NCBI RefSeq assembly: GCF_000210295.1
Contig: NC_026741.1
Span: forward strand, 248,001-312,000
Reading direction: 5' to 3'
Source: Trypanosoma brucei gambiense DAL972
Lineage: Eukaryota > Euglenozoa > Kinetoplastea > Trypanosomatida > Trypanosomatidae
DNA length: 64,000 bases
How positions within the stretch are numbered: position 1 is the first letter of the stretch; the number at the start of each line of letters is the position of its first letter. Below are positions 4,853 through 55,333 of the stretch, one piece after another. A program made the translations under genes and the position numbers. The notes beneath the pieces are model-generated. The model had not been told where the DNA came from and made no database searches. It was given only the letters and a program-made list of their open reading frames with translations.

Positions 4853-5525
4853 GGCACAGAGTGATAAAAAAAAATTGTAAATCAGAGATAACACAAACAA
4901 TGCTTTCAAATGCCTGTGGGTCCGTCCTTCTCCTGGAAATATAACGAGTAACGATGTCTCCCTGTTTTTTTTTTTGGAGGGGGGAAACAAGAAAACTAGA
5001 GAGGTTGAAATAGCGAGATGAAGGCCGTGTTCTCGCACTTTTCTTCGTAAAACTTGAAGTTGATAGAGGCAAAGGGAACGGAAGAAAAGATAGACGAAAA
5101 CAAAAAAAAAAGATTTAACGAAAAAGTGTCAAAGGAGCCTAGACGCTGCAAAAGCCGCGAGTGATTCAAACAAAGTTATGGAGAGGTCGACATCACCACT
5201 CCCCCATCCCCTCCTAATCTCCTTGGGAAGGGGAGTAGAAAGCGAAAACTGTATAGGTGACGAAGCACGTTCCCTGTAGAAATCACGGTACTCACCACCC
5301 ATTAGCCCATCAATCACCTTCTCATCTACCTCATTCCTCTGAAGTAGTTAACCGACATTAATCATTACCGCCTGTCGTTACCTAGTCCCCACACATCACA
5401 TTTCCGGGAATATGCCTGTTTCCACGCAAAACCTGTGCACACTATTCTCCACAGTAAGACTCGTCCATTGCTAGGCAGTCCAGTTGCCTAAGCACGCCCT
5501 ATCAGTTTGCCGTCCAGCAGCACCT
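4853..5525 (-). other. Intergenic region upstream of the SEL1-repeat gene
   Basis: On the minus strand a strong pyrimidine tract at about 5061-5112 precedes an AG at 5053-5054, a good spliced-leader acceptor. A leader added there gives a 5' UTR of about 200 bases with no ATG before 4852, which supports the chosen start. A second possible acceptor follows the T/C-rich block at 4970-5000. The rest, up to the Grc3-like gene stop at 5526, is presumably that gene's 3' UTR. No further gene is seen. Confidence 0.6.
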
Positions 5526-36476: not shown

Positions 36477-37307
36477 CTAAGCGGCTTTAGCGGCGGCATC
36501 ATTTCCAGCAGTGCGAGCACGCTTCTTGCGCAGTTCAGCGCGAGACCGGAGCGACAGCTGCAGACCTCCCCATTGGCGACGGATAACGTCACTGCGAGCA
36601 AGGAAGCGGGCATTCACAGAGCGAGTAAGGTTCTTCAGCGCAGCCTGGTCCTCCGCGTTGACGTCAGTAAAGGCAACACACGTGGCGGTTTTGCGACCAA
36701 TCGCATCACCCAGGCGTGCCTTGTCCTTCACGATGGCGTACGGAATCTTGTTGGCGCGGCACAGAGTCGGCATCCATAACACCAACTCAATAGGATCCAC
36801 GTTGTTGGCGATGAGCACAAGGCGCGCCGTCTTCTTTTCAATTGTGCGCGTCACCTCCTGCAGACCACTCACAACGCAGAGAGGGGCTTTCGTTGACACG
36901 GTCCCCTTGGGGTTCTTCTTCTTTTCCTCTGCAACTTTTGTCAAACGATCCCTACGCGCCTTTCGGGTTTCCGGGGCGTACTTCTTAACCAACTTCAGCA
37001 GCTCGTTGCGACTGGAGCGGTCAAGCACCTTTGTGAATTGGTTCAGCGCCGGGGGTACCTTCAAGCGTCGCTGTAGCACGCGCTTCTTACGCTGCATCGT
37101 CACGAACGTGGGCCACCGCATGAATCGTGAAAGGTCACGAGCATAAGGGACATCACGCCCGATACCAAAATCCTTCGGGCGCGCCACGAAGGGTGATGGT
37201 GCTGCAGCAGAAGCCTTTGCCTTTTTCTGGGTAACCTCAGGTTTCTTGTACGGGACCCCAGCCTTTTTGGTGGGCTTTACAGCCTTCTTCACCTCCTTGC
37301 CGGCCAT
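36477..37307 (-). CDS. RPL7A: 60S ribosomal protein L7a (eL8), copy 2
   Basis: The product is 276 residues. Four extra codons upstream begin with GTG, so the ATG at 37307 is the start. eL8 is a structural protein of the large subunit. It contains a basic N-terminal extension (MAGKEVKKAVKPTKK) and an L7Ae/L30e/S12e RNA-binding domain at about 142-225 with the family block ARLVLIANNVDPIELV (161-176) followed by LCRANKIPYAIVKDKARLG. Protein and coding sequence are identical to the copy at 37563-38393, 1086 bases away, while the flanks differ completely. Minus-strand spliced-leader acceptor candidates are AG at 37327-37328 or 37316-37317 after a CT-rich block at 37341-37360. Confidence 0.96.
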   Translation of the reverse strand: MAGKEVKKAVKPTKKAGVPYKKPEVTQKKAKASAAAPSPFVARPKDFGIGRDVPYARDLSRFMRWPTFVTMQRKKRVLQRRLKVPPALNQFTKVLDRSSRNELLKLVKKYAPETRKARRDRLTKVAEEKKKNPKGTVSTKAPLCVVSGLQEVTRTIEKKTARLVLIANNVDPIELVLWMPTLCRANKIPYAIVKDKARLGDAIGRKTATCVAFTDVNAEDQAALKNLTRSVNARFLARSDVIRRQWGGLQLSLRSRAELRKKRARTAGNDAAAKAA

Positions 37308-37562
37308 TTTCTTCACTTACAATCCACTATGTTAATTCAATGAAAGGAGAGGCGAAATGGATATTTTTGTCAATGTTCAAGCGAGTGGCACCGCACACTA
37401 CCTCCTCAGCCAAATTTACACTGCAACAGAAAGTGGCAGCATCGGATAGATCAGCCCAGCATCACATGTTCAAAGGAAAAAAATAGAAAGTAGCACGTAC
37501 ACACACACAACGTAGTAAATGCCAGAATACAGGACAGATGAAAAGCGGCGGGGCACCAACTA

Positions 37563-38393
37563 CTAAGCGGCTTTAGCGGCGGCATCATTTCCAGCAGTGC
37601 GAGCACGCTTCTTGCGCAGTTCAGCGCGAGACCGGAGCGACAGCTGCAGACCTCCCCATTGGCGACGGATAACGTCACTGCGAGCAAGGAAGCGGGCATT
37701 CACAGAGCGAGTAAGGTTCTTCAGCGCAGCCTGGTCCTCCGCGTTGACGTCAGTAAAGGCAACACACGTGGCGGTTTTGCGACCAATCGCATCACCCAGG
37801 CGTGCCTTGTCCTTCACGATGGCGTACGGAATCTTGTTGGCGCGGCACAGAGTCGGCATCCATAACACCAACTCAATAGGATCCACGTTGTTGGCGATGA
37901 GCACAAGGCGCGCCGTCTTCTTTTCAATTGTGCGCGTCACCTCCTGCAGACCACTCACAACGCAGAGAGGGGCTTTCGTTGACACGGTCCCCTTGGGGTT
38001 CTTCTTCTTTTCCTCTGCAACTTTTGTCAAACGATCCCTACGCGCCTTTCGGGTTTCCGGGGCGTACTTCTTAACCAACTTCAGCAGCTCGTTGCGACTG
38101 GAGCGGTCAAGCACCTTTGTGAATTGGTTCAGCGCCGGGGGTACCTTCAAGCGTCGCTGTAGCACGCGCTTCTTACGCTGCATCGTCACGAACGTGGGCC
38201 ACCGCATGAATCGTGAAAGGTCACGAGCATAAGGGACATCACGCCCGATACCAAAATCCTTCGGGCGCGCCACGAAGGGTGATGGTGCTGCAGCAGAAGC
38301 CTTTGCCTTTTTCTGGGTAACCTCAGGTTTCTTGTACGGGACCCCAGCCTTTTTGGTGGGCTTTACAGCCTTCTTCACCTCCTTGCCGGCCAT
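37563..38393 (-). CDS. RPL7A: 60S ribosomal protein L7a (eL8), copy 1
   Basis: This is the upstream member of the tandem pair, 276 residues with an ATG at 38393. It has the same domains as the downstream copy: a basic N-terminus and an L7Ae fold with ARLVLIANNVDPIELV at 161-176. The intergenic stretch to copy 2 is only 255 bases and must hold both a polyadenylation site and a splice acceptor. The two coding sequences look identical base for base. Identity ends one base upstream of the ATG and two bases past the TAG stop. High expression of ribosomal protein genes through gene duplication is common in trypanosomes. Confidence 0.96.
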   Translation of the reverse strand: MAGKEVKKAVKPTKKAGVPYKKPEVTQKKAKASAAAPSPFVARPKDFGIGRDVPYARDLSRFMRWPTFVTMQRKKRVLQRRLKVPPALNQFTKVLDRSSRNELLKLVKKYAPETRKARRDRLTKVAEEKKKNPKGTVSTKAPLCVVSGLQEVTRTIEKKTARLVLIANNVDPIELVLWMPTLCRANKIPYAIVKDKARLGDAIGRKTATCVAFTDVNAEDQAALKNLTRSVNARFLARSDVIRRQWGGLQLSLRSRAELRKKRARTAGNDAAAKAA

Positions 38394-38749: not shown

Positions 38750-39838
38750 TTAATCACGACCGTTGGGTCTACTAACGATATCCCGCATATTTTGCCCGGG
38801 AGATCCGTTGGAAACTAACAACCGTAGGCCACAGTTTTCTACCTTAGCACTCGCGACATTGTCATCCTTACCCGTGCCATCACCGTTTGTATCACAGCTC
38901 CAGAACTGCATCTCCACATCTCTCTCTATCCTCCTCTTCTCTCGTTCGAGGAAGTATCGGAACACGCGCTGAAAGGCAGATTGCTCACCCTCACCGTAGA
39001 GGTCAGCCTCATCGCTGCTAAAACTTAGCGTGTCCTCGTCAGAAACGAAGTGGGCGTCGTCTCGTGTGCCCCTGTCTGTGCCCCTGCTATGGTTCCTTTG
39101 TAGTGAAGAATCTGTTTCAGAGGTTTTGCCGAGGCTATCGTTATTGGGGAATTTCCCGGTGTGACCGCCACCCCCTCCCCAGGACTCGTTAAACACCTCG
39201 TCATTATTATACGATAAACTAAACCCACTCTCGATTTCAAGCTTATTGCGCCGTCGCAACTCCTTACGTATGTAGTGCCCCCTCCCCTGCCGCCCAGGCG
39301 GGAAAAGACAGAGCTCCTGCGTATTGAGGTTCATGAATCGTACCACCCCGGAAGTGGTACGACACAATACCCATCCATCAGGTACGTCATCGACCAAAAG
39401 CATCTCTTCGATCATGATCAGGAGGTCGTCATCACGCGGGGAGCGCAGCCCAACGCTACAGCGAAACTCTGCTATGTCCCCCACCGATAACATGGTGGCG
39501 GCACCTCCATCGCCGCATCTGCTTCCCTCCGCGTCGCTACCGCCGTCACCGTCCTCGTCTCCGTCAACTTCCTCCTCGATGCGCGTGATCACCACGCATG
39601 GTGGTGGAGCATCACACCCTTTCCACCGCCTAAAGCCAGAAAACTTACGCTCCGCTCGCTTGCGGGCCGCTCGCCGCCATCTTGCTAAGAAGAGCCTCGT
39701 GCGTAAAACCGCCGCATACGCTATGAGACATACGCCACCACCCAGCCAAGGAACCCACTGCGGAACAGTTGACAGCACTGCGCGCCTTGCATCTGAGAGC
39801 GTCTCCGCCTCGTAGAGGTCGTGCCACAGTTTCTGCAT
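38750..39838 (-). CDS. Membrane protein with WW-like motif, function unknown
   Basis: The frame extends to 39952 but starts there at TTG. The first ATG is at 39838 (362 residues), and an acceptor AG at 39930-39931 after a CT-rich tract supports it. A hydrophobic segment at about 27-49 (WVPWLGGGVCLIAYAAVLR) is followed by an Arg-rich patch, so it is probably a single-pass membrane protein with the C-terminal part in the cytosol. An acidic D/E/G linker comes next. At about 151-182 the sequence VPDGWVLCRTTSGVVRFMN, then NTQELCLFPPG, has the spacing of a WW domain (first Trp, central aromatic, Asn, Thr, final Pro), but the second signature Trp is replaced. The C-terminal part is charged, with a helix FQRVFRYFLEREKRRIERD. 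No family assignment is possible. Confidence 0.8.
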   Translation of the reverse strand: MQKLWHDLYEAETLSDARRAVLSTVPQWVPWLGGGVCLIAYAAVLRTRLFLARWRRAARKRAERKFSGFRRWKGCDAPPPCVVITRIEEEVDGDEDGDGGSDAEGSRCGDGGAATMLSVGDIAEFRCSVGLRSPRDDDLLIMIEEMLLVDDVPDGWVLCRTTSGVVRFMNLNTQELCLFPPGRQGRGHYIRKELRRRNKLEIESGFSLSYNNDEVFNESWGGGGGHTGKFPNNDSLGKTSETDSSLQRNHSRGTDRGTRDDAHFVSDEDTLSFSSDEADLYGEGEQSAFQRVFRYFLEREKRRIERDVEMQFWSCDTNGDGTGKDDNVASAKVENCGLRLLVSNGSPGQNMRDIVSRPNGRD

Positions 39839-40370
39839 TACGACAGTGCAGCCGCGCCACCCGCGGCCCAGTGGAAAGTAGCAGTGACAATATGGGTGCG
39901 CAGCTAATAGAAGCGAAAATCGGTGGGAGCTATAAAGAGGAAAGCAGAACAATGCTCACACAAATCCTCCCCTGTTGTAAATCTAAGAGGTAGCAGGGAA
40001 AAAATCATACAGTTATTGAAGCGATGCGGAAACGGTTCGAAGAAAAAACAATTAACGAAGACATCTACCAACTTTTATATGCAGATACATGACCACAGCC
40101 ATGAAAACATCGGCTCCCACACCGAGTCGCCGATCATTGACAATAACAGATACGAAAGAAAGATTTGCTATACATATCCGACGGGAAATAATGGAATACC
40201 CTCCTCGAGGGAGCCAACCTGAGACAACAATGAAAGAAAAAAAGAGACAGCAAACGAACGCACGCCCTCATTGTCAAGTTTCACGGCGCCACGACTACGT
40301 TCACGAAGCAACGCGTCACAGGCATTCACCACAACTATTCAAAAAAAAAAATGAGTCAACCCACCCTCGG
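39839..40370 (-). other. Intergenic region between the dynein and WW-like genes
   Basis: About 530 bases with no gene. It contains the likely spliced-leader acceptor at 39930-39931 for the WW-like gene and, towards 40370, the 3' UTR of the dynein gene, with an A-run near 40340-40350. Confidence 0.6.
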
Positions 40371-43300
40371 TCACGATACGGCTATAAAGAACCCCAAGCT
40401 GTCACCAAGGGTGTCCACCACAGGACCACTGGACGCCAATGCTTTACGCCCACCTCCTCTGCCGCCCGGTGGTCTTTGCCCCACAGATCGCGGGGGTGTC
40501 GCGTTTAACTCCGACCGTTCACAAGCCGGTACTGTGACGTACAGTGGTAGTTCGAATAGGGGCTGCCACACGCGGTTGGTTGCCTCGTCGGGCTTATCGT
40601 CGGGATTCAGGGGGTGACTCACAGCCCACTGTAGATCTAGTCCAACCACCGGCACAGTGGCGACGGACCGTTTTACCACGTCGCAAACCTGAGGGGGTTC
40701 AGGTTCTGTCAAGAAAAGAACGCTATTACACATCGCACTGCCCTCCTGGCGTGGCTCAGAGCCCTTCTTCCCTGAACGCAGGTCCCACAGTACGCCACTC
40801 GGCTGTCGCGAAGCACAGTCTGTAAAATCGCTCTGATATCGAACGGCGATAACGATATCCATATCATGCTTGCTGGCACCTACCTCCTTGTTCCATCTCA
40901 TTTCACATGGCTTCCAACCGGCCTGTATCGATACCTCCCGCTCCAATTGCCGCGAGGGCGCAGCACCAACGAGGAGGACGTCGTCGTGAAGGAGCATGTA
41001 GCGCCGTGTCACTACCAAAACCGCCTCAATGTGGCTCAGCAAATCACCCTTCCGCTCCAACGCATCTGCCAAGAGTATATTGAGCAGGAGCTTTGGATAC
41101 TGCAACGCAGGCAGCCATACACTGAGAACGGACCCGGGCTGCCATCCCCTGAACTGCGCTGTCGCAACTCGCAGCCGTGAGGATAACTCTTTGTGCTGGG
41201 CGCGTTCCAATGCCCTGACAGTTTCCTCTCCATAGACCCCCTCCCACACAAGCAGTAACGATACAGCCGAATTTGACTCAAAGTCTTCATGGGGCTCCGT
41301 TTGAGAAGCACCATCTACCCCACCCTGTGAGCATAATGGTCCATCTGAGGTGCTAAACAGCGGATCAGCCCTCGTAGAGAAAGGAACACCACAAAGGCTT
41401 CTCCGCAAGGCACTACTTGCCATGCTTCGGTATGTCACAATCGTGTGGTCGTCTCCACAAAGATGGAGGAAACTTTTGTCGGAACGACGCAGAGTCGCCA
41501 TGAAGACCTCATCAGTTGGCTTCTCCCTGAGAAGCTCGTCCAGTGCAGTGCTGTAGCACAAACGCCCGTCATCCCTCAGCATCAACAGGGGACCACGCTC
41601 GTACAGCATGTTTTCAATTAGCAAACAACCTTGATGTCTTTCGCTTCGAGATGTGTACACGAGGTAGGCCACTTTATTAAAGAGACGGTACAGCCGCTCA
41701 CTAATTGACCTCCTCTGCAAGGTTGCGCTCTTCAGCTCCGTACTTGACACAGTGTGGGTTGCGGCGTGTAAAGTAGTGGATGGGTGCCTCTTGGATGACG
41801 GCTCCTCCTCCTGTGGGTCATCTAGCTGTTTGAGCGAAACGAGACGCAGGATGAGAAGAAGATCATCAGTGTTGATGTCCGTCCGATACAAATCAGTGAA
41901 TACGTTGTCAAGTCCCCTATCCTCCACAAGAGCACGCTGGACAGCACCCCCAGCACTGATTCCGGCGTGTAGCTCGAGGACATAGCCCAACGGCGTAACC
42001 ATGGTGTTGCCCCGGTCGCCTCTCTTGCAGGAGTCCAAGTGACTGCAACTGACCCCCGATTTGGTACATTCCCTCTCAAGAAGAAGTGTCACACCCTCTC
42101 TTTTCCACGGTGGAGCAAACACCTTCCCCCCAATGACGGAAAGCAACTGGTGCCGCGGTGACACCGAATCCACTACTACGGGAAAGCACCACTCCTGCAT
42201 GGCGCGAACCACGTTATTCCGTACCATATTAGGGGCGCCCCTAACAGTGCAACACAGTACAACAGGTGTGCGTGTCGAGTGGCCACCACCCCGGAGTAGA
42301 CCCCATATCCCGTACCGCCATAAGGCAGAGAACCTGCTTGAAATTGCTTGCAGGAATGACGCCTCCTCAGACACGCCAGCTGGCGGCACAAACACGGCCA
42401 TAACGCAGTGGCCACGCACAACGTGGGTAGGAGGTTGTTGAAATGAATGACTGACATAACCCACAAGCTGATCCAAGTCCCTTACATTGGTTACGGTGAG
42501 GTACTGAAAGAAGAAACTAGCCGAGTTCGCACGCTGCCTAACATAACCGACCAATTCATGTGTGTTGGCTCCCTTCAGAAGCAATGGAATCGATGTGTTC
42601 CCGGAAAACTGCCACCATTCTTCACTATACCGCAGATTAGTGCACTGACTGTCAAGGGAGTCGTATATGGACAAACCCCCCTCTTCCGTGACTTTCTTCT
42701 TCACCGATGTGAAAAACGCGGCATAGAGGTCAGAAGCAACCGCATCGCATGCCCTGTGGTTCAGCAGCATCCACTGTTGAAAAAGGAAACGGATTAATTC
42801 TTCACCAGCTTTCAACACCCATGAAGTATTTGTATCCTTAACGAAGAGCGTGCTCTCCAAACTCAGACCGCTCTCGGTGTCATCAAGCGTGGAGTTATCA
42901 CGGGCAATACTATTTAGCAACGGATCCATTGATGATTCGTACAGGTTCCTTACTGTCTGCTTATCAGCAGCAATATTTTGCCGAGTGAGCAGCCGGTTCA
43001 GTACATCGTATTGTTGGGAAGTGAGAAAGGTGATGTGGGAAGAATACAGCACACCCGAGTGAGCCAACATAAAGCCGCAGCTGTGCACCACGGTGGACAG
43101 AATATACCATGCGAAGATGCCACGCAGTTCCATGGGCCAGCCGGAAGCCATCACATCCACAAGGCTCTCAACGAAGTTTACCGTTGCATAAAAGTCTCTC
43201 TGTGGTGGTGGTAGCTTGTCAAAAGTTCCAGGTGATATGCGACGCACGTAGGCACTCGACAAGTTTGTTGCACCCACAATGAACGGTTCCAGCATGCGCC

Positions 43301-46300
43301 ATTCCCACAACCTTCCTAATATCTCTTTCTCTATGACACGTACAGCCCGCTCCGCCGCTTGAATCCCCCGTTTAAGTCCCTCCCACAAAGAGGCCAGTGG
43401 TTTTTGCACGCTTTTGTTGTGCGCCTCGATGCGTAGCACAGTCATGTGGAGGGTGTGCAACTCGCGAAGAAGGAAATCAAGTCGTTCGAGCTCGCCGTTG
43501 TTGTTCCCAGCCAGCTCGTCAAGGTCACCGCTTAACATCTCTCTGACCTCTGGTAGCGTTACACGAAAGGCACAGAGTGCGTCATTGTCCTGCTTGTCGC
43601 GCACACTAAAGACATTCTCCACCAATGGTCTTGCGTACGCCGTCGGGCACCCTAAGAGTATCGTGTGAACTCCCTCCTCTATCCGACGCGGACTGGGAAT
43701 GTTGACGACCGTAGTGTAGCAACGCGTGGCAGCCTTAGCTTCTTCGTGTAGCATAACCGCAGGAGAAACACAAACCATGAGAAAACTGGGCTTTACAGGC
43801 ACTTCCTGCCCAAATAGTGTACACCTCAAGTTACGCTTTTGCAGCGCCGCCTGCGGTAACGCCTTCAGCAACAACAGTAGAGGTCGCAAACGCTCCAGCA
43901 CAGAAGGGGCATGCACGTCACATATGAGTAGACCGATCCCCGAACTAGCTGCCCTAACCACCTCGTCGCAGAAGTCCTTCTGCATTACGGAAACAACGAC
44001 GCAGTCACCGCAGATGAACGCCAGACAGCGGCCCAAAACCTCTTCAAAAACGTTTGTTACACCGCAAAAGATCGGGCAGTTGGAAAAGATCTTCTGGAGC
44101 AATCCTGCGATGCATTGTCGTTCATAGGCAGAACATGCCGATAGAAGCAAACTTTCGACCGTCTCGTCGACGCTAGGAAACAGCAGTGAAGCTGCGGGGT
44201 CCTCCAAATCCGCCGGGGCCTGGATACCCCAATCACAAAGAAGTGAGTACAGAGCTTTGTGGCAGGACCGTTGCACCTCAAGTGGTAAAGAGGCAAAAAA
44301 CGCAAAATGAGCAGCAACCATAATAACGGCACCCTCACCCTTTGCCATCTCGTTGCACTGCGCCGCAGTTTTGCCTGGTGTATGGAACAAGGAAAACCTA
44401 TCCAGAGCGTCCGTTATAAATTCAAGGGATTTTTGGCGCTTCGTCATATCCACTACCGTCGTTTCTAGGCCCTGGCTCTTCTCATCTACGTTGTTAACTT
44501 CCTGTTCAACACATTCAATTTTCCTTCTGGACTCGGAGACGCCACACCCCGCTTCGTTCTTTCTATCTTCAATAGTTGTGTACTCAAGACGCAAGCTGTC
44601 TAATTCCATCTGTTCAATCTGCAGCTCCTTCTTCACCCGCACAGCCTCCATGACGGACAAAAGGTAATCCGACAAAGCATCAGCAAAGGGTGAAACATCG
44701 GTAAACCGTACACCGCGCAACGAGGAATGGACACTCGCAAGGGACTCGTACGACAAACTCTCATGATCCAAATCTCGGAGCCGGGCGATAAATTTGGATG
44801 CCGTCATGATGCTTCTACCGCGGTCCCACACATCTCTTGTCGACGTTGCACGAAGATCCTCCCCCAACACCCTACAGACAGCCTTTACAAGCAACACGCC
44901 CTTAGGCGAAGGCAAGCTGCTTGCATATTGCCTGATTTGCGCCGTCTTCATTGAACACAAACGAGCTTTTGTAGAGGAAAGACCATCGCTGATACTTTCC
45001 CTCTTTAGGCGAAGCGCGTTTTCCGCCGCGGTCACCAGCGGCAACAAGTCGCATGACTTCCTCTGCAAAAATTCCCACTCACTCTGATGCCGTGTGGCGC
45101 ACTCCTTGGACCTCTCCAACCTAGCCACCAGCTCCCCACGGTGCTGGACAACGGTCACCTTCGTCTCCTCCGCCTCTTTACTTTTGTTGACGTACTCCTG
45201 CATTTTTGTGGGAATGGCGTTGAACAGATCGTCAACTCTAAGGGACTGAGAGACACAATGGCATATCCTAAACAAAGTCCCTCTAAGACGGTTAGCTAGT
45301 GTGGCGAACTCCTGCAACTGCTCAACAGAAATCTCGGTGTTTGTTCGTAGACAAAAAAATATGTCACATAGAAGCTGAGAGTAGGGACGTCCCAGTAGCG
45401 TCTCCGTATCCATAGGAACTCCCAAAAAGCAGGGTATGGACTCCACAGGTGCATCCTTTCCACGACCTTCTCCCCCTGGCGGTACATCCGCACTTTCGGC
45501 CCTCCCCGTTTCTGGTACGACAAATGTCGCCTTCTCGCTGCGGATCACCACATCGACATGTTCTCTCAGCATATCCGGGGCGTGCAGCACCACGGGAAGC
45601 ATTTGCAGTACGAAAGGAATCACAGTGCCCAGACGCCTCATTTCCTCAAAGCTAACAAAATGTGCTACAATACTCAAACGGGAGGAAATGCGTTCCCGCA
45701 ACTGCACCTCTTCCGCAGGAGTGAGTTTCCCACTTTGGCGTTGTATGCCCCGCCGTCCGTGTAATAGGTACAGCTGCTCTTCAACAGAAAACAGTTGCCT
45801 AACATTACCACCGCGCAGTGTGTAATAAAGAAGACTCAGTGGCCAAACCAGTGTTAGCACCTCATTAGGAACAAACACCACCATGCGACTCCCGCTACGG
45901 CAGGTGCCTTGCAGGATTTCAATGAGTTCTCGAGTAAACGAATTCTTCGCATCCGGAGCAACAAAATCAGACCGCAATGACCTCAAGTTCACGCCCCTTC
46001 CGGTGGCCCACACGTGCAGTGCTCGACGGATGCCAATGCCGTAGGCCCCAACAAGAGCAACATGAGAGCCTTCCTGTCTCAAACAATGGTGCACATCTGA
46101 TATCAACGAAACCGTCCAATGTGGGGTGCAATTCACATGCGGCGCCCCCCCAACGGCTGCCTGCTGCTGTGCCTCCTTTGTGGACGGCGATTCCATACGC
46201 GACTTGCCCGTCGATATATAAGGTGATTCACTACGGATCTCATCGACAAGGGCAGGCGGCATCATCACGTCGTGCTTCTCCAGCCATTTCCTGATGACGT

Positions 46301-49300
46301 CGTGTCCCACTGATGGATACTCAAGGCTGTTCAACACCTCAGTTACGTAGGTTTCGTCAGCACCCTCGCGCTGGCGTGCGCCAGGGGAGTACCGCATGGT
46401 CTCCTTCGCCATCTTAAGAAGCTCAGCCATTAACTCTTCTCGGCGGCCTTCGCCAGCAATAAGAGGCATGAAAAACGTGTAAACCGAATGGTATATACCC
46501 TTTACGATACTCGCCTCATCTAACTGAGTGGAAAGAATACGCAACACCTTGTCCACAACCCTGAGAAGAACGTAAGGATAGGGTAACTGTGATTGATTGT
46601 CGGCCCTGTCATCAGAAAAACTCAGGAGAGACGTGTCTTCGAATGCACAAATCCCGTCGATGCTCGCCAGTGTACTCTTCAGCCGATCTAAACCCGAGTG
46701 GTTGTCCCCGAGCAGCGAATTTATGAAGTGGAAAGCCATACTCTGCGAGGCAATGAGAAAGTCGCCCACGCCCTTCAAAAACCCCTCTCCGCGCCGTACG
46801 CCCCTTGTTTTGCCAATAAGTTTCTCCACTTCATGCAGTATTTCATCCTCAATAAAATCTGGTATCATTATCCGAAGGACGCTGTTTTCCACCTCAGGTT
46901 CGTGAGGCGGTGTCGGTAACGAGGTTCCTACACATATAACATCCTTTATGGGCACGTAGCCCTTTGACGGTGTGCACAGAGCAGAGTAGTGGTCAATGAA
47001 AGCGAAGACACACATGGCTTGGGGATATCCCATTTCTCCAACGAGGTGGACATCATCAACACATAGCACTAACCTCTGCCCAGATGAAGGTACATATGTG
47101 TTGTGTTGGGAGCGAGAAAGACCCTGAAGCAATGCATCCTGTACATCTCCAGCGGTGCACGCTACCGTGTTGTGAACCAACTCATATGCCCACCGGCTGC
47201 TACACCGCATGTGATTTAAGAGAGTCGACTTCCCCTGACCCCGCTCCCCCACAAGCAGAACTGGCTGGCCCACCGCGGCCATATATTCTAAGTGCATTAG
47301 CGTCCGCTGTCGTGAACGCAAGGGGAAAAAGTACGTCCACGCGTGTTGTTTAAAGTTTACACCCGGATCCCTGGACGCCCACGGGGTAGGAAACCCAACA
47401 TCACTAGCCTCCTTGCCCAATTTCTTCCACCCAAATGGTGTCGCAATATAGTTCAAAAGGTCGTCGTCTGGTGGAAATATAACATTCTCATCCACACCTA
47501 TATGCTGTGCCACAGCTGTTAGGCCACTTTGCGACTTCTTAAACGCAACAATACCCGTAGAGATTTCGCTTACTTGCATGCATAACATAACCGACCAGCA
47601 GGTCGCAAAAACAGCGCACTGAGATGCGAAAACATCATCGCTTGAATGTTCGCCCTCCGCCTTGCCACACGATCGCGCAAACGCATACCATCGCTTGTAA
47701 AACCTGGAGCAGCGGCACACAACGCCGAACACATCTTCGTCTAAACTAGAAATCCTTGGCACTGCGCTCACGTCGAGCACAGCCTCGATAAGTGCCGATA
47801 TTACAGGGAATGCCGCGCCTGGGCTACAGTTCGGATCGCTGTAGAGTTCATTTTTTAGCAAATCCTTCCATCCAGACGGCTCCGGCAGGGCATATATAGC
47901 CACCTCACTCACTATACGTGGATTGGCAGATTCTAAGGTAGTAACCACAGTGATAATGCGTGTTGACGAACCTTGTATAAAATCCGGGCCAGAGTACGAC
48001 CGGACTCTTACATGCGCTGCGCTCTCCAAAAAAGTGGGTACATCCACCACGTTCGTGTGTTCCATCACAATCGTATGAGTCGATATCGGGTCCCACTTCC
48101 TAGCAATGGAAACAAGTAAACCAGGTCGGGATTCGTCGCCATACACTTCCGCCGAGCATAGAAGCCGGTGGGAAAGGACAATATAGTGCGTGTCCCCGAC
48201 CCAACTCTTCCACAACGGGGTCTTCCCGGAATATGCAGACCCCACGAGCATGACGTTTTTGTTGAATTTCATGAAGTAGGTAAAACGTTCCAAACAACTA
48301 TCGAACCCCAACTTTGACTTGAACTTCTCCAATACCTCCTCCAAGACGTGTCGCGGGATCCCAAGTGTGTGAACAACGTTCCACTCGAAGAGTTTCAGCA
48401 GTCGCTCGTCCGACTCAATAACGTGCCAAAACTGCCGCAAAAATGCCGAGCACAGACTTTCAGCCATTGTCCCCGTTTTGCAGTCAGCAGCGTCTCGAAT
48501 TACCGACAAGAAACTCCTGCTCGTGAAGACAGCAGGCAACATCGCAACAAACTGGGAAAACATTGTGGCCAGTCTTTGCCCAATACTTGCGAAATGAGGC
48601 ACCCCAAGTGCCTGGAGCGTACCCTGGGCGAGCAACCCTAGGTCCACAGAAGGTACATAAATCGGTCGAAAGGCAAGACTGAGAGCGGTGGGTATTTCAT
48701 CGAGCTCACGTGTTGTGAGAACAACATGAAAGCACTCATGCCTGATGGCACATATAGAATTATCGCCTGCCTGAAACTCTACCGTTGACATACCACCGTC
48801 ATTGTGTCTCTTTTCATTGCGACATGCTGACTCAACACCTTTGAGAAGCGCTGAGACTGAATCGGCTAACTCCCTGCCCAGAAGTTCAATGTCCTTTAGG
48901 CACAATATCACTCCCGCGCCCAAGCAACCACGTAAGGCACGCACAATGCCCTCGAATGGCAGAGTCGGATGGCATTGGAGGAACCAACAGAAGCGGCCCA
49001 AGTACTGTGCATAATATTCTAGCTCCGAGTTTTCGTTGTTCTTCCCGATAAGAATAGGGAAGGAAGATGCTCTTATCGACATAAGCATGCTGCACAATCC
49101 CTTCTCAACATACTCAGGAGTCAAAATGGGAATGTTATAGTCTCCAAAAAACTCCATACCGTAGGGTAACTGAAGGCCCATCATCTGTACAACAATTTTT
49201 CCGCCTTCCAGCAACGTTTGCACCATCGCTGTGGCTTTAAGATCCTCCAGCGTTTCAACACCGGATTTGCTGACCAGTCGCAGTTCATCCCGGTACCGTA

Positions 49301-52300
49301 AGAGAGAGGTAATGGCAGTACTAAGGATTCTCTGAACTCTGGCACCTAAGGTATCATCAGCAAGTCGTACATATTCTTCCAAAACATCTTTTGAACGGCG
49401 GGTATATGCGTTCATGCCTGCCGTGCCAGCAACAGAAACAGCCTCCCGCAGGTCATGGTGACAGATTGTGCGAAGAGCTACATCGATCACCTGTACGCAT
49501 GAATCACCCAACCAAACCAAGGTATCCATGCGGTAATGATTTTCCACCGACATTTTTATTTCGTTGAGAAGTGAGGAACGTAACGTTCTGTCAAACGTTT
49601 TCATCCATTGTTCAACAGGTAGAGGTGATAACTCAATGGGGGTGTCCGTTCTAAGCACAGAACCATCAGTAGTAATAAACGACGTCACAACATTTCCCTC
49701 CAGATTAACGTCACAAACCCTGCTGTACAATGTTGTAAGATGGCGCTTCAGTTTTGTTGCGTTGTGAACGGACAAGAACGACAACAACGACTCATCATCC
49801 ATGAGATAAAAACGTGGGAACACCTCCCGCTTCGCGTCAAGTGAAGATGCAAGAATTTTTCGAACATCACCTAAAATTGTACGAGCCAAAGTGACCTGGT
49901 CTTGTATATTCTCCTGCATCATGGCCGTAAAAAGAGTGTACTGAGCTTTCCGCAAAGTCGCTGCCAGTGACTTGAAAGTATCACTAGTAGATGACACCTT
50001 CTCACGCAATAATTTTAGGTCTCGAGGAGTGAGTCCTATAAAATCTTCGTCCGTTGTGGTTTCAAGGGTTATTCCAAACGGTAGCACCTCCTTCCACTCT
50101 TTCTCGACGTCCTCCCACGTTAGTAATGTCTCCTTCATTCGTTGCACAACAGAATCGAACTCCATTACGGAACTTATGGTATACTGGCTAAGATGTTCAA
50201 CTTGACGTAAAGCACTTAACTCGTGTGAGAATGCTTCCAACTGTGAAGATATCGAGGTCCTGCATCTAGGCGAAAGAATGAGGGCATCATTGGATCCTTC
50301 GGCAACTTCAAAGACAAAGCGTGTTTTCTTCGCGTCACTCTTCATGCGCTCCAAAGTAGCCTCCGCCTCAAAATCTAAAAAAGCGGGGTCTACAATTAGT
50401 TTTATCTCGTCAAGGTGATCAATGATACCATTCTCAAGTAATTGCTTTAGTGTGACGTTAGAATCAATCTGAGTCGACTGCTTTCTGCCAAGCTGGAGAA
50501 TCCTCCCTATCTCCTTCCAGTGATTTTTCCGCAAGCCAGGTGTTGATAAGTATGCCAAAAGAGTCTGCAGAGACTCGAAGTCTGCCAACACCTGTTCTTG
50601 CTGCCTCCCTAGACACACTAAACCCGGATATCCCCGTAGATTCCGAACTGAGGAATGAAGGAGCCTTCTGCATCGCTGGACTTCATCGATAGTTTTCTCA
50701 CTGTTCAGGGCACTGAGAGGAATTATATAGTAATCCTTGACCCGAGTCGAATCAAAAACGCTGCACCAAAACTGTTCCAGAACGTCAAAAACACGCAACA
50801 CGGGATGTACGTCATCAAATGTCTCGACAGTTTCGAGACCAAGTGACCTTTCGCAATAAAAGACGTGGTCAATTCCCTTGACGACGTCGTCAACAATAAC
50901 TCGCAGCTCCTCACATGTTTGCGCACATATGTCACAAACATCAACACTGAGAAGTCCCAATAACTCAATCACACCATTACGGACCACAGTTATTTTACCA
51001 TGCAAGTCATTGCGGTACTCAACTAACTGAACAACCAAAGCAGGTTTCCTCTCAGCGCAAGCCTTCTTCGCATTGTTTGTTAACACGAGAAGCTCGTTGG
51101 GACATCGCATGAGCTCTGCTGCTACTTCATATAGTTGAGAATCTGCTGGTATGAGAAGCTTTTCTAAGTAACTAAAGAACTCGACAGCCCTTCTGCAATC
51201 ACCTGCCTCTATCTGCTTTGATAAATGTTCTGCATATGTAATATCAGATTGCAATTTCTCCAGCTCCTCAACACTGTTTGGAATTACCGATAACTGATCG
51301 TTGTAACTACGGCATTTCTCCAATGATGAGCGTATGAAAGACAAAATGTCTTTCTGAACCATGTTCAAAAAGCTTTTCAAGTAAGAAGACCATTGTTTTA
51401 CGTACCATTTCTTCACATCAGTGCAGTTAATAGCAATGCAGCCGCAAAACACCACATCAGGTGATATTTTCCCCACTTCTAATATGGTCTCGCGAAGCAA
51501 ATTCACATTGCTTACAACTTCTTCCTCCGAGCATTTGGTGAAGCACACTCCGTTTAGTGTCGGCATACGAGCAAACATCGAGTACTTCTCCGTTAAGTCC
51601 TCAACTACGGTACATGCTGCTCCTAGGTACCTTATTAGGGTTGCTTTTCCTGGAAAGCTGTCGTCGTCAAACAAATTTAGGGAGTGTCTCTCAAACTGAA
51701 TCGTTCGCATAATAACAGTTTCCGGAGTAGGAAGGTTGTTTGCGCTGTCGAGTAATTCGTCCAGCAGATCAGCGATACCAAAATGAAGTTGAGCGAACGA
51801 TGGAGAACTTGGTAAACCACAACCACCAACGACAAAATACACCTCAATAAGGGACATTTTCCGTGCCTTCAACGGTGTCACTATACGATCCCCACCAGTA
51901 GCGAAGAATGATACTAAATCATCAATTGCATCGGATATAAGAATCCTGATACGGTTGGTTAAAAATATACGTACCATCAAAAATACACGCCACAGTTCAC
52001 TCTCTTTTAAATCATTCAAATCCATCGACAAAAGCGTACCTGCCTCGGGGATCGTGGTAAATAAAAGTTGTTCCACCTCCGTATAGAACTCAATCCTTAT
52101 TCTGGTGAACGCCGCCCTCATAGAACATCCCAGCTGAGAAAGGAAATCATCCGCGTCTGTTCGCCAGTTGAAGGTGGTTGTGTTGAAAACAGCAAGCCTC
52201 TCAAAACGATCCGACCACAAGTGGTGTAACCTCACAAAAAAATCATTTTTCCCCTCAGACCATATAAGCGAGTGTTTTAGACAATAAAGGGAGTCGTTAA

Positions 52301-53045
52301 ATGCTAAAAATCCCCCGTGGTCAGAGCCGTCATCCCGTCCATTGTCTTCTTCGAATCTTTTGATATCTTCATTGCGACAAACGAGGCGCAAGGGTGCCAT
52401 TATCCTGCGGAAAAGGGAATTGAGATTCATATAATCATAAATAGCTTCGACACAGACCCTAATATACACCTGTTCAATCTCTTTCATTGTCCTTTCAACA
52501 ACATCCCGATGGTCAGCAGTTGTTCCTTGAGTTGCTAATATGACTATTCGTCTCAAACAACCCGTTTCATGAGTTATACATCCTTTGGCTACATTCTCAT
52601 ATAAATCAATGAGCAATGATGTCCTAAAATCACGGCCACTTTTACCGGGGGTGCACAAAGCCTCCTCGCTAATCCCAACAGGAACTCGAACCGAACGTCT
52701 CTGCGATTGTAACTGTGACACTTGAATGTACTGCCTCTTTCCATCATAACAAAATGTTCCCACATATGGTGAGTAATGACAACCTATTCTCGAGCTAGGA
52801 GATGATGATGCCTTCTTCCATAAGCAAATCGCGTCGAAAAGATCGCTCTCCTTGAACTCAGGGAAGTGAAGAACTTCGGTTCGTCCCGTGTAGTCGGGCG
52901 CTATGCCAAACGAACCGAAGCCAAAAGTCTCACCAAACCCTGCATCCGTGGCAACAGTGATAAATGGTCGCGGAATACCATCTAGAAAATAGGCAAGGAC
53001 CTTTTCAAAACGAATCTGTCCACCACAATCCCGCCTGTAATTCAT
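40371..53045 (-). CDS. Divergent dynein heavy chain with degenerate AAA1
   Basis: The product is 4224 residues. Three upstream codons start with TTG, so the ATG at 53045 is used. Length and order fit dynein heavy chains: a long tail, a linker with the hallmark KREVFPRFYLMDDESLL near 1076, six AAA modules, a coiled-coil stalk (about 2600-2710 and 2815-2880) around a microtubule-binding-like domain beginning SLPSPKGVLLVKAVCRVLGE, then AAA5 (EVPVKPSFLMVCVSP near 3085), AAA6 and a C-terminal domain. AAA2 keeps GSAYSGKT (1602-1609). AAA3 keeps GERGQGKS (K1939) and CVDDVHL. AAA4 reads GAYGIGIRR, without Lys. At AAA1 the usual GPAGTGKTE becomes ILIGKNNENSEL (G1334) and the usual CFDEFNR becomes CLKDIEL (K1384, D1385). 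The normal motor ATPase site is therefore missing. Axonemal versus cytoplasmic class cannot be told. Confidence 0.93.
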   Translation of the reverse strand: MNYRRDCGGQIRFEKVLAYFLDGIPRPFITVATDAGFGETFGFGSFGIAPDYTGRTEVLHFPEFKESDLFDAICLWKKASSSPSSRIGCHYSPYVGTFCYDGKRQYIQVSQLQSQRRSVRVPVGISEEALCTPGKSGRDFRTSLLIDLYENVAKGCITHETGCLRRIVILATQGTTADHRDVVERTMKEIEQVYIRVCVEAIYDYMNLNSLFRRIMAPLRLVCRNEDIKRFEEDNGRDDGSDHGGFLAFNDSLYCLKHSLIWSEGKNDFFVRLHHLWSDRFERLAVFNTTTFNWRTDADDFLSQLGCSMRAAFTRIRIEFYTEVEQLLFTTIPEAGTLLSMDLNDLKESELWRVFLMVRIFLTNRIRILISDAIDDLVSFFATGGDRIVTPLKARKMSLIEVYFVVGGCGLPSSPSFAQLHFGIADLLDELLDSANNLPTPETVIMRTIQFERHSLNLFDDDSFPGKATLIRYLGAACTVVEDLTEKYSMFARMPTLNGVCFTKCSEEEVVSNVNLLRETILEVGKISPDVVFCGCIAINCTDVKKWYVKQWSSYLKSFLNMVQKDILSFIRSSLEKCRSYNDQLSVIPNSVEELEKLQSDITYAEHLSKQIEAGDCRRAVEFFSYLEKLLIPADSQLYEVAAELMRCPNELLVLTNNAKKACAERKPALVVQLVEYRNDLHGKITVVRNGVIELLGLLSVDVCDICAQTCEELRVIVDDVVKGIDHVFYCERSLGLETVETFDDVHPVLRVFDVLEQFWCSVFDSTRVKDYYIIPLSALNSEKTIDEVQRCRRLLHSSVRNLRGYPGLVCLGRQQEQVLADFESLQTLLAYLSTPGLRKNHWKEIGRILQLGRKQSTQIDSNVTLKQLLENGIIDHLDEIKLIVDPAFLDFEAEATLERMKSDAKKTRFVFEVAEGSNDALILSPRCRTSISSQLEAFSHELSALRQVEHLSQYTISSVMEFDSVVQRMKETLLTWEDVEKEWKEVLPFGITLETTTDEDFIGLTPRDLKLLREKVSSTSDTFKSLAATLRKAQYTLFTAMMQENIQDQVTLARTILGDVRKILASSLDAKREVFPRFYLMDDESLLSFLSVHNATKLKRHLTTLYSRVCDVNLEGNVVTSFITTDGSVLRTDTPIELSPLPVEQWMKTFDRTLRSSLLNEIKMSVENHYRMDTLVWLGDSCVQVIDVALRTICHHDLREAVSVAGTAGMNAYTRRSKDVLEEYVRLADDTLGARVQRILSTAITSLLRYRDELRLVSKSGVETLEDLKATAMVQTLLEGGKIVVQMMGLQLPYGMEFFGDYNIPILTPEYVEKGLCSMLMSIRASSFPILIGKNNENSELEYYAQYLGRFCWFLQCHPTLPFEGIVRALRGCLGAGVILCLKDIELLGRELADSVSALLKGVESACRNEKRHNDGGMSTVEFQAGDNSICAIRHECFHVVLTTRELDEIPTALSLAFRPIYVPSVDLGLLAQGTLQALGVPHFASIGQRLATMFSQFVAMLPAVFTSRSFLSVIRDAADCKTGTMAESLCSAFLRQFWHVIESDERLLKLFEWNVVHTLGIPRHVLEEVLEKFKSKLGFDSCLERFTYFMKFNKNVMLVGSAYSGKTPLWKSWVGDTHYIVLSHRLLCSAEVYGDESRPGLLVSIARKWDPISTHTIVMEHTNVVDVPTFLESAAHVRVRSYSGPDFIQGSSTRIITVVTTLESANPRIVSEVAIYALPEPSGWKDLLKNELYSDPNCSPGAAFPVISALIEAVLDVSAVPRISSLDEDVFGVVCRCSRFYKRWYAFARSCGKAEGEHSSDDVFASQCAVFATCWSVMLCMQVSEISTGIVAFKKSQSGLTAVAQHIGVDENVIFPPDDDLLNYIATPFGWKKLGKEASDVGFPTPWASRDPGVNFKQHAWTYFFPLRSRQRTLMHLEYMAAVGQPVLLVGERGQGKSTLLNHMRCSSRWAYELVHNTVACTAGDVQDALLQGLSRSQHNTYVPSSGQRLVLCVDDVHLVGEMGYPQAMCVFAFIDHYSALCTPSKGYVPIKDVICVGTSLPTPPHEPEVENSVLRIMIPDFIEDEILHEVEKLIGKTRGVRRGEGFLKGVGDFLIASQSMAFHFINSLLGDNHSGLDRLKSTLASIDGICAFEDTSLLSFSDDRADNQSQLPYPYVLLRVVDKVLRILSTQLDEASIVKGIYHSVYTFFMPLIAGEGRREELMAELLKMAKETMRYSPGARQREGADETYVTEVLNSLEYPSVGHDVIRKWLEKHDVMMPPALVDEIRSESPYISTGKSRMESPSTKEAQQQAAVGGAPHVNCTPHWTVSLISDVHHCLRQEGSHVALVGAYGIGIRRALHVWATGRGVNLRSLRSDFVAPDAKNSFTRELIEILQGTCRSGSRMVVFVPNEVLTLVWPLSLLYYTLRGGNVRQLFSVEEQLYLLHGRRGIQRQSGKLTPAEEVQLRERISSRLSIVAHFVSFEEMRRLGTVIPFVLQMLPVVLHAPDMLREHVDVVIRSEKATFVVPETGRAESADVPPGGEGRGKDAPVESIPCFLGVPMDTETLLGRPYSQLLCDIFFCLRTNTEISVEQLQEFATLANRLRGTLFRICHCVSQSLRVDDLFNAIPTKMQEYVNKSKEAEETKVTVVQHRGELVARLERSKECATRHQSEWEFLQRKSCDLLPLVTAAENALRLKRESISDGLSSTKARLCSMKTAQIRQYASSLPSPKGVLLVKAVCRVLGEDLRATSTRDVWDRGRSIMTASKFIARLRDLDHESLSYESLASVHSSLRGVRFTDVSPFADALSDYLLSVMEAVRVKKELQIEQMELDSLRLEYTTIEDRKNEAGCGVSESRRKIECVEQEVNNVDEKSQGLETTVVDMTKRQKSLEFITDALDRFSLFHTPGKTAAQCNEMAKGEGAVIMVAAHFAFFASLPLEVQRSCHKALYSLLCDWGIQAPADLEDPAASLLFPSVDETVESLLLSACSAYERQCIAGLLQKIFSNCPIFCGVTNVFEEVLGRCLAFICGDCVVVSVMQKDFCDEVVRAASSGIGLLICDVHAPSVLERLRPLLLLLKALPQAALQKRNLRCTLFGQEVPVKPSFLMVCVSPAVMLHEEAKAATRCYTTVVNIPSPRRIEEGVHTILLGCPTAYARPLVENVFSVRDKQDNDALCAFRVTLPEVREMLSGDLDELAGNNNGELERLDFLLRELHTLHMTVLRIEAHNKSVQKPLASLWEGLKRGIQAAERAVRVIEKEILGRLWEWRMLEPFIVGATNLSSAYVRRISPGTFDKLPPPQRDFYATVNFVESLVDVMASGWPMELRGIFAWYILSTVVHSCGFMLAHSGVLYSSHITFLTSQQYDVLNRLLTRQNIAADKQTVRNLYESSMDPLLNSIARDNSTLDDTESGLSLESTLFVKDTNTSWVLKAGEELIRFLFQQWMLLNHRACDAVASDLYAAFFTSVKKKVTEEGGLSIYDSLDSQCTNLRYSEEWWQFSGNTSIPLLLKGANTHELVGYVRQRANSASFFFQYLTVTNVRDLDQLVGYVSHSFQQPPTHVVRGHCVMAVFVPPAGVSEEASFLQAISSRFSALWRYGIWGLLRGGGHSTRTPVVLCCTVRGAPNMVRNNVVRAMQEWCFPVVVDSVSPRHQLLSVIGGKVFAPPWKREGVTLLLERECTKSGVSCSHLDSCKRGDRGNTMVTPLGYVLELHAGISAGGAVQRALVEDRGLDNVFTDLYRTDINTDDLLLILRLVSLKQLDDPQEEEPSSKRHPSTTLHAATHTVSSTELKSATLQRRSISERLYRLFNKVAYLVYTSRSERHQGCLLIENMLYERGPLLMLRDDGRLCYSTALDELLREKPTDEVFMATLRRSDKSFLHLCGDDHTIVTYRSMASSALRRSLCGVPFSTRADPLFSTSDGPLCSQGGVDGASQTEPHEDFESNSAVSLLLVWEGVYGEETVRALERAQHKELSSRLRVATAQFRGWQPGSVLSVWLPALQYPKLLLNILLADALERKGDLLSHIEAVLVVTRRYMLLHDDVLLVGAAPSRQLEREVSIQAGWKPCEMRWNKEVGASKHDMDIVIAVRYQSDFTDCASRQPSGVLWDLRSGKKGSEPRQEGSAMCNSVLFLTEPEPPQVCDVVKRSVATVPVVGLDLQWAVSHPLNPDDKPDEATNRVWQPLFELPLYVTVPACERSELNATPPRSVGQRPPGGRGGGRKALASSGPVVDTLGDSLGFFIAVS

Positions 53046-53291
53046 ACTATACAATCCCCTTATAACTTATGAATACTAGAACCCTCCACAAAAATAATAA
53101 TTAATTCGAAAAGAAAAGAAAAATACGGGTGCCCGCCGCGATGGGGCTACAAACCGAAGTACTCCAAGGAAGACCGTTCGTTCACGGAAACACGTGGAAC
53201 GTTAATACGTTATGAACGAACATACAAGTCTAAACAAACGGTCAGAACGCAGTTGAGATTTGTCGTATAACAAAAGAGAGTAAAAGGAACA
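53046..53291 (-). promoter_or_regulatory. Short intergenic region with spliced-leader acceptor tract for the dynein gene
   Basis: On the minus strand a TTTTC-repeat pyrimidine tract at about 53105-53123 precedes several AG dinucleotides and the dynein ATG. This is the expected trans-splicing signal. The segment is only 246 bases and also carries the 3' UTR of the upstream gene. Confidence 0.6.
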
Positions 53292-54271: not shown

Positions 54272-55333
54272 ATGGAAATGGCGGCGCCACCGCCGCCTGC
54301 CCGTAGGAGGCGGCAGCCTTTCATCACGTCTTTCCTTGAAAACGTATTACCGTTCCTACCGGCACGTGAGTTGCTTGTTTGTGCGACCGTATCCCGCACC
54401 TGGAGGGAGGAGTCTAGGGCACTTTCCATCTGGAGAGCGCTTCTAATCAGTAATCCACGGACAGTACAGTACGGGTATCAAGGGCTTACGCTAGGAGAGA
54501 TGCAAAAAATAGCCCTCCGAGCCGCTAATTTGTCGGACAACCGTGGTGACGCCGGTGGAGTCACTGACCAAGAAACCAGTGGAATGGAAGGAAGTGACTT
54601 CAGAGACAGTGAGGGAAGATCTGAGCCGTCCCTGGAGAACGCGAGAGGTAAGCAACGCAGACAATTCTCATCATGCGGAGGGGTCTCGACATTAGAAAGA
54701 GGTGCAATAATGACCCAGCGGACTGGTAGGGCCATCTGTGTCGAAACGAAAAGTTGTACCAACGATATACAGAAAACCTTCGAAACCGTTCAAACGTATA
54801 TCGTACATGTGAAAGAAAACGTTAAGTCAATTGCGTGTGTAATCGATGCACTCCGTCAGAAGGTACCAAGCAGTGAGTCTATTAAGTTTCATCAACAGTG
54901 TGTTGGGTTGTGGAAGAGGCTCAAAGTGTTCGAGGAGATTGTTATCGATTCGCTTGATGGTGAAACGGCATCACTAAGAGGACTTCGCAACTTTAAGCAG
55001 GTGGAGGTGGTGATGTCAGGACAAGTAGAATCGCAAGCTTACATCCAGTGGTGTTTTTTCAAGCAAGCACTTCCACTTGATGACACCTATTATGATTACG
55101 TAGACCTGCTGTATTCATTAGGTCCAGCCAGATATGGTCCCGCGATCGCGACTCTTTCAGAAATAGAGCTGGCCGTAGAGAGGATTCGAATGAACAATCA
55201 GCTTCAAACTGTCATCGATGGTGTGATCATGATGAAAAGTGTGGATATTGGAAGATTATGTTGGGAATCTTTGATGGCTTATGTAAACACAGAGAGGCGT
55301 GCAGCAGATCTTGGTGGACGTAGACCTGAATAA
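54272..55333 (+). CDS. F-box-like protein
   Basis: The product is 353 residues, with an ATG at 54272. It is the only supported plus-strand gene. After a P/R-rich start, residues about 21-60 read as an F-box: FLENVLPFLPARELLVCATV, then SRTWREESRALSIWRALL, with the LP, the L-x-x-V-C-x-x-W-like core and the closing W-x-x-L. F-box proteins recruit substrates to SCF ubiquitin ligases through Skp1. The middle (about 85-150) is acidic and disordered. The C-terminal 200 residues are helical (QTYIVHVKENVKSIACVIDAL, IKFHQQCVGLWKRLKVFEEI) with no WD or leucine-rich repeats that I can see, so the substrate-binding part is of unknown type. It has a good splice acceptor and opens the rightward unit. Confidence 0.85.
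   Translation: MEMAAPPPPARRRRQPFITSFLENVLPFLPARELLVCATVSRTWREESRALSIWRALLISNPRTVQYGYQGLTLGEMQKIALRAANLSDNRGDAGGVTDQETSGMEGSDFRDSEGRSEPSLENARGKQRRQFSSCGGVSTLERGAIMTQRTGRAICVETKSCTNDIQKTFETVQTYIVHVKENVKSIACVIDALRQKVPSSESIKFHQQCVGLWKRLKVFEEIVIDSLDGETASLRGLRNFKQVEVVMSGQVESQAYIQWCFFKQALPLDDTYYDYVDLLYSLGPARYGPAIATLSEIELAVERIRMNNQLQTVIDGVIMMKSVDIGRLCWESLMAYVNTERRAADLGGRRPE

Follow-up and report, generated by a model that had tools for sequence, protein, structure and literature searches.

A Trypanosomatid Dynein Heavy Chain Family That Has Lost Both Walker Motifs of AAA1

Hydrolysis at AAA1 is treated as the engine in dynein biology, and a heavy chain that lacks this site raises the question of what such a protein could be retained to do. 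We encountered one in a stretch of 64,000 nucleotides from Trypanosoma brucei gambiense DAL972 (NC_026741.1, positions 248,001 to 312,000; here called the window, with positions counted from its first letter). A minus-strand frame at 40371-53054, in which the first ATG is residue 4, contains a complete coding sequence (40371-53045) for a product of 4224 amino acids plus stop, and the family consensus opens with the same N-terminal block. Residue numbers are counted from the start of the frame (ATG, residue 4; last residue, 4227), and all features of the gene lie on the minus strand. An earlier reading made from the sequence only had proposed an intact gene for a dynein dead at AAA1; we found an open frame with P-loops at AAA2 and AAA3 and none at AAA1, and both Walker A and Walker B of AAA1 are lost in the window protein and in every family member that we examined.

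A dynein heavy chain without an AAA1 nucleotide site

The AAA1 module (residues 1291-1590; 48285-49184) was delimited by hhalign and by a weak match to PF12774 (33.1 bits); its fold is retained, and its nucleotide site is gone. The Walker A position, placed by hhalign, reads ILIGKNNENSEL (residues 1334-1345; 49020-49055). The Walker B position reads CLKDIEL (residues 1385-1391; 48882-48902), with Lys in place of the metal-binding Asp and Asp in place of the catalytic Glu. Both strings are as the sequence-only reading had quoted them, and the interval to which it drew attention, 48840-49060, covers residues ~1332-1405 and is the correct site. In the alignment to a set of 12 normal dyneins, CLKDIEL sits on CFDEFNR with a posterior of 9, the P-loop itself has posteriors of ~3 to 8 with better-aligned flanks, and the sensor I stretch TMNPG is partly deleted in the window family. 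The pattern GxxxxGK[ST] occurs twice in the entire protein, in AAA2 and in AAA3, and therefore no intact AAA1 P-loop lies elsewhere in it.

The genome that we searched (11 contigs, 22.1 Mb, with the window on contig 8) contains 12 other heavy chains that we could find, all with GPAGTGKTE and C[FL]DEFNR, making the window protein the thirteenth. With Pfam AAA_6, the window copy scored 38.5 bits in the genome search, compared with 419 to 511 bits for 11 of the other chains and 354 plus 74 bits, in two pieces, for the twelfth. In the chain L020 (G000:C7:863142-864188), the AAA1 profile was matched in two pieces, as though a short insertion lay within AAA1. No second copy of the 4224-residue dynein-like gene was found in this genome, the next matches being other dynein heavy chains at ~20% identity.

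The protein otherwise retains the dynein plan of tail, linker, AAA modules, and stalk with microtubule-binding domain (MTBD). The tail (residues 4-750; 50805-53045) matches no Pfam model and is among the better conserved parts. The linker, from DHC_N2 onward (residues 751-1290; 49185-50804), matched PF08393 at 164.6 bits (residues 755-1168), a domain present in 10/10 members scanned, and shows the highest identity among the large regions measured. Its motif FPRFYLMDDESLL (residues 1079-1091), the AAA2 P-loop GSAYSGKT (residues 1605-1612; 48219-48242), the AAA3 Walker A GERGQGKS (residues 1936-1943; 47226-47249), and the AAA3 Walker B CVDDVHL (residues 1998-2004; 47043-47063) all stand where the sequence-only reading had put them. 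At the AAA4 P-loop position (46020-46049), the sequence is GAYGIGIRRA, which has no Walker A, and GxxxxGK[ST] is found there in 0/30 family rows; this loss is a weak sign, since an aligned normal dynein is also without the Lys (GVGGSGRQ). The modules AAA1 to AAA4 follow the order seen in the dynein heavy chain superfamily. By hhalign to the normal-dynein stalk, two coiled-coil arms and the MTBD (residues ~2610-2890; 44385-45227) appear to lie between AAA4 and AAA5, with part of the MTBD assigned to residues 2707-2763 (44766-44936).

AAA5, AAA6, and the C-terminal region (residues 2891-4227; 40371-44384) were recognized by profile-profile alignment only. The Pfam scan gave no match to models for these regions (PF03028 and related) in 10 members; in the window protein, it returned DHC_N2, AAA_6 (weak), and AAA_7, with nothing past residue ~2004. 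The alignment of the family (30 rows) to the 12 normal dyneins covered residues 1-4067 (E value, 7e-198), with posteriors that were low in parts.

Conservation and placement of the family

Relatives were identified by protein searches in Trypanosoma (theileri, grayi, melophagium, vivax, cruzi, conorhini, and equiperdum), Leishmania, Porcisia, Leptomonas, and others. Several of these entries already bear the name dynein heavy chain or are annotated with its domains, so that the gene as such had been recorded before. Besides the window protein, 29 predicted proteins of 3570 to 5304 residues show the same AAA1 loss; the resulting 30-row alignment excludes P0002 (T. b. equiperdum, near-identical) and P0036 (L. 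donovani). GxxxxGK[ST], sought anywhere in AAA1, is present in 0/30 rows, as is the Walker B Asp-Glu pair (Asp column, 0/30; Glu column, 1/30), and thus no orthologue with a normal AAA1 emerged among them. The loss is common to the family and, unless it was repeated, would be older than the split between Trypanosoma and the Leishmania group. Judging from the four named genera, the family may be spread across the trypanosomatids.

Identity was calculated over 18 stretches as the mean pairwise value for all 30 rows and for the 8 Trypanosoma rows, given here in that order. The tail (0.40 and 0.58) and the linker (0.43 and 0.64) exceed the AAA1 module (0.30 and 0.54) and the last 777 residues (0.25 and 0.38). 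The AAA1 Walker A columns (0.20 and 0.28) include, at 0.20, the lowest value of the 18 stretches. The AAA1 Walker B columns reached 0.38 and 0.74, and hence Trypanosoma preserves even the altered motif well. The AAA2 P-loop, intact in 26/30 rows, reached 0.71 and 0.74. For AAA3, the P-loop reached 0.47 and 0.67, with GK[ST] in 26/30 rows and GR[ST] in the other 4, and Walker B reached 0.72 and 0.94, with [VI]DD in 30/30. The values for the MTBD were 0.40 and 0.54, and it is followed by AAA5 at a spacing of 186 to 200 residues in all 30 rows (192 to 193 in the eight Trypanosoma rows); the range in other dyneins was 197 to 210, a partial comparison in which the automatic search worked in 5 of 28. 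This pattern of identity and spacing indicates that AAA1 retains its fold despite a drifting P-loop and that the AAA2 and AAA3 sites and the microtubule-binding tip are conserved. In four relatives (P0055, P0057, P0058, and P0059), Arg replaces the Lys of AAA3 Walker A, so that even the best kept ATPase site changes.

Phylogenetic placement was examined in a first tree, which omitted 9 of 47 rows, and in a later tree of 9 family rows, 13 other proteins, and 12 paralogues. With or without the odd rows, the family falls outside all heavy-chain groups compared; when DNHD1 and the other odd rows are left out, it joins near the unresolved base of the normal dyneins. We treat it as an orphan heavy-chain family of trypanosomatids. 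Three other chains of the genome (L018, L019, and L020) group with an insect dynein-2 chain.

Inner-arm origin was considered and rejected. It was hinted at by the family profile, which scores inner-arm types highest and whose best PDB sequence matches are the tail and linker of DNAH1 (up to 204 bits, from position 344 on) and of DNAH3 (195 bits), two of the single-headed inner-arm chains, a group to which DNAH7 and DNAH12 also belong. An approximately unbiased (AU) test rejected the grouping with inner-arm chains (p-AU, 0.0123; quick tree, long branches). Both the hint and its rejection are limited by the long branches. Unlike the single-headed inner-arm chains, the window family has a dead AAA1 and was not found in two models of the 96-nm axonemal repeat. 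With the cytoplasmic dynein-1 and dynein-2 chains, the window protein has the plan of ring, linker, and stalk in common, but AAA1 is active only in those chains.

One of the axoneme models, PDB 9y6s, is the 96-nm repeat of L. tarentolae, in which the outer dynein arm and seven inner dynein arms are reported to be resolved (PMC12637542). It holds no chain near-identical to the L. tarentolae orthologue P0038 (best, 34.8 bits). The other, 9e5c, we take to be T. brucei because its chain 6a and L010 of the genome match over 2000 residues with a score of 4607 bits. No near-identical PDB chain was found for the window protein, whose best 9e5c chain scored 86.6 bits. Among the best 60 matches, 9e5c contains at least 9 distinct heavy-chain sequences; the genome yielded 12 heavy chains besides the window protein. 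In a further entry, 9fqr, the chains Xx, Hl, and I3 (4069, 4583, and 4730 residues) match dynein heavy chains and are named malate dehydrogenase 1B, radial spoke head protein 9 homolog, and CFAP57, apparently through mislabeling.

Possible roles of an AAA1-less dynein

AAA3 is regulatory in normal dyneins. In the normal cycle as described in one account, dynein holds the microtubule strongly without ATP, and ATP at AAA1 brings release and bending of the linker (PMC4879348). We postulate, with a probability of roughly 0.58, that the window family is an orphan pseudo-motor of trypanosomatids, a tail-anchored microtubule tether or regulator held in a strong-binding-like state. Without ATP binding at AAA1, the ring would be fixed in an apo-like form, with the linker straight and the stalk in the strong-binding register; a strong-binding state would be expected of any chain unable to bind ATP at AAA1. 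Such a protein could serve as a static crossbridge or as a microtubule tether insensitive to ATP, attached to a partner structure by its conserved tail. AAA3, and AAA2 with it, might hold nucleotide structurally or serve as a slow switch. Since four relatives carry Arg in place of the AAA3 Lys, hydrolysis at AAA3 may not always be needed. The loss of the AAA1 motifs is observed, and we infer the tethering behavior and the location in the cell. We propose a minor or non-doublet site of action because neither of the two 96-nm repeat models was found to include the protein. The suggestion of the sequence-only reading that this is a structural or regulatory heavy chain is probably right.

Several observations weigh against this interpretation. 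No biochemical, localization, or phenotype data were found in the literature searched (open-licence PMC papers). Some AAA1 residues survive in part of the family: Arg persists at the column aligned to the AAA2 arginine (VSRCG) in 8/30 rows and at the sensor II column in 14/30. At AAA3, the full GxxxxGK[ST] is found in only 15/30. The coiled-coil arms of the stalk are poorly conserved (0.23 to 0.25 and 0.34 to 0.41), and the conservation of the MTBD is seen at the level of the whole domain. Between T. brucei and L. mexicana, the protein keeps ~14% of its near-self bit score (330 of 2411, residues 1000-2050), while an inner-arm chain keeps ~62% between T. brucei and L. tarentolae (2846 of 4607); by this rough comparison of different stretches, the family appears to evolve more rapidly than the functional inner-arm chain. 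Absence from averaged models would also be compatible with an axonemal site that is minor, flexible, or local. A structure model of AAA1 to AAA4 matches cytoplasmic dynein motor domains, but it is of modest confidence (mean predicted local distance difference test score [pLDDT], 64.9; predicted template modeling score [pTM], 0.54). In that model, residues 1285-1354, the first seven ten-residue blocks with the lost P-loop inside, have pLDDT values of 25 to 43, and the remainder of AAA1 is mostly above 70.

A tentative variant, which we favor less, is that of a dedicated engine-less trypanosomatid dynein that abandoned AAA1 before the Trypanosoma/Leishmania-group split, in which the AAA3 switch, linker, and MTBD are under selection and which forms a microtubule crossbridge gated, if at all, by the nucleotide state of AAA3 and not by a power stroke. 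Slightly more doubtful is a role as inactive partner or scaffold, in which the protein, instead of holding microtubules, pairs with, packages, or helps to assemble an active heavy chain, with ring and stalk serving as fold only. The higher identity of the linker and tail over all rows (0.43 and 0.40) than of the C-terminal 777 residues (0.25) would suit such a protein, and absence from the two 96-nm models fits a cytoplasmic assembly or pairing role. However, the MTBD outconserves its flanking arms and the spacing of the stalk is near-constant, and a pure scaffold needs neither.

The nearest described case is DNHD1, which is a partial precedent. It has been described as an orphan or ghost dynein gene (PMC8754002), and one report describes it as required for the sperm flagellum (PMC9916431). 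In two fish sequences, its AAA1 Walker B is broken (VLKSVE and LFDSVD; CLKDIE in the window protein), and AAA3 has Walker motifs, as in the window family. DNHD1 differs in retaining at AAA1 a P-loop (GPRTSGKT) or near P-loop (GPCMSGKK). The statement in the sequence-only reading that no dynein class of this kind had been described was therefore too strong, although, among the literature matches listed, we found no description of the window protein or of a family that has lost both AAA1 motifs in several genera.

That the window family is the orthologue of vertebrate DNHD1, in one ancient class of AAA1-dead dyneins, seems to us improbable. In the linker-to-AAA3 tree, the two share a side of a branch with a Shimodaira-Hasegawa-like approximate likelihood ratio test (SH-aLRT) value of 82, which rises to 97.9 when a chytrid orphan is added, and DNHD1, too, combines a broken AAA1 Walker B with DDxH in AAA3. 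The DNHD1 score against the family profile (89 to 102 bits) is near the bottom of the list in absolute terms but not low relative to its low paralogue-profile score (928 to 976 bits). On the other side, DNHD1, the chytrid orphan, and the window family are all long branches, and DNHD1 keeps its P-loop or near P-loop at AAA1. Of 161 columns that are conserved across 19 normal dyneins, 5 are altered in both DNHD1 and the family, and 1 of these has the same residue in the two, an N-to-H change that occurs in insect dynein-2 too; on this count, we did not retain orthology. In P0028 (the chytrid Borealophlyctis) and P0031 (the coral Orbicella), the AAA1 P-loop is present and Walker B is broken (ILQNLE and CLNNIS), suggesting that AAA1-degenerate heavy chains may have arisen more than once.

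A motor driven by AAA3 instead of AAA1, as the sequence-only reading had allowed, is very unlikely: AAA3 does retain GK[ST] in 26/30 rows and [VI]DD in 30/30, but its Lys is Arg in 4/30, the full Walker A pattern is missing in 15/30, and linker bending is described as following ATP binding at AAA1 (PMC4879348). Local decay, a pseudogene, or a sequencing error would explain the missing motifs and nothing further, and we dismiss it, in agreement with the sequence-only reading, in view of an open frame of 4224 codons, the same loss in 29 further predicted proteins, and the 13 differences in 4224 that separate the window protein from that of T. b. equiperdum.

An AAA1-less chain has been retained in each trypanosomatid genus where the family was found, and it offers a natural experiment on ring, AAA3, linker, and stalk without the engine, in which the role of AAA3 becomes testable alone. 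Inventories that use score thresholds could have missed chains of this kind; one dynein inventory is described as having set its threshold to avoid extremely divergent sequences (PMC2239267). Should the window family turn out to be related to DNHD1 and the chytrid orphan, there would be an ancient eukaryotic class of non-motor dyneins.

Neighboring genes

Downstream of the dynein-like gene, on the same strand, lies a small gene (38750-39952) whose product matches the fused gene model P0049 in its C-terminal part (blastp, 31% identity; E value, 2e-32). In the genome of P0049, the dynein-like gene likewise adjoins the homologue of 38750-39952, and the gene model joins both (P0049 residues ~4821-5164). 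The Pfam scan gave no match for the 38750-39952 product, in which we presume that the stretch GWVL...RFMN is WW-like. An F-box gene (54272-55333; PF12937 barely above the cutoff) lies on the strand opposite the dynein-like gene.

The T. brucei gene number probably falls between Tb927.8.1330, named 60S ribosomal protein L7 (PMC6686227), and Tb927.8.1380, given as F-box (PMC12816148), and would be Tb927.8.1360 or Tb927.8.1370. No mention of either number was found in the literature searched. Two tandem ribosomal-protein genes, at 36477-37316 and 37563-38393, have a product that we judged by eye to be identical, the first frame beginning slightly more upstream; we take the pair to be L7a.
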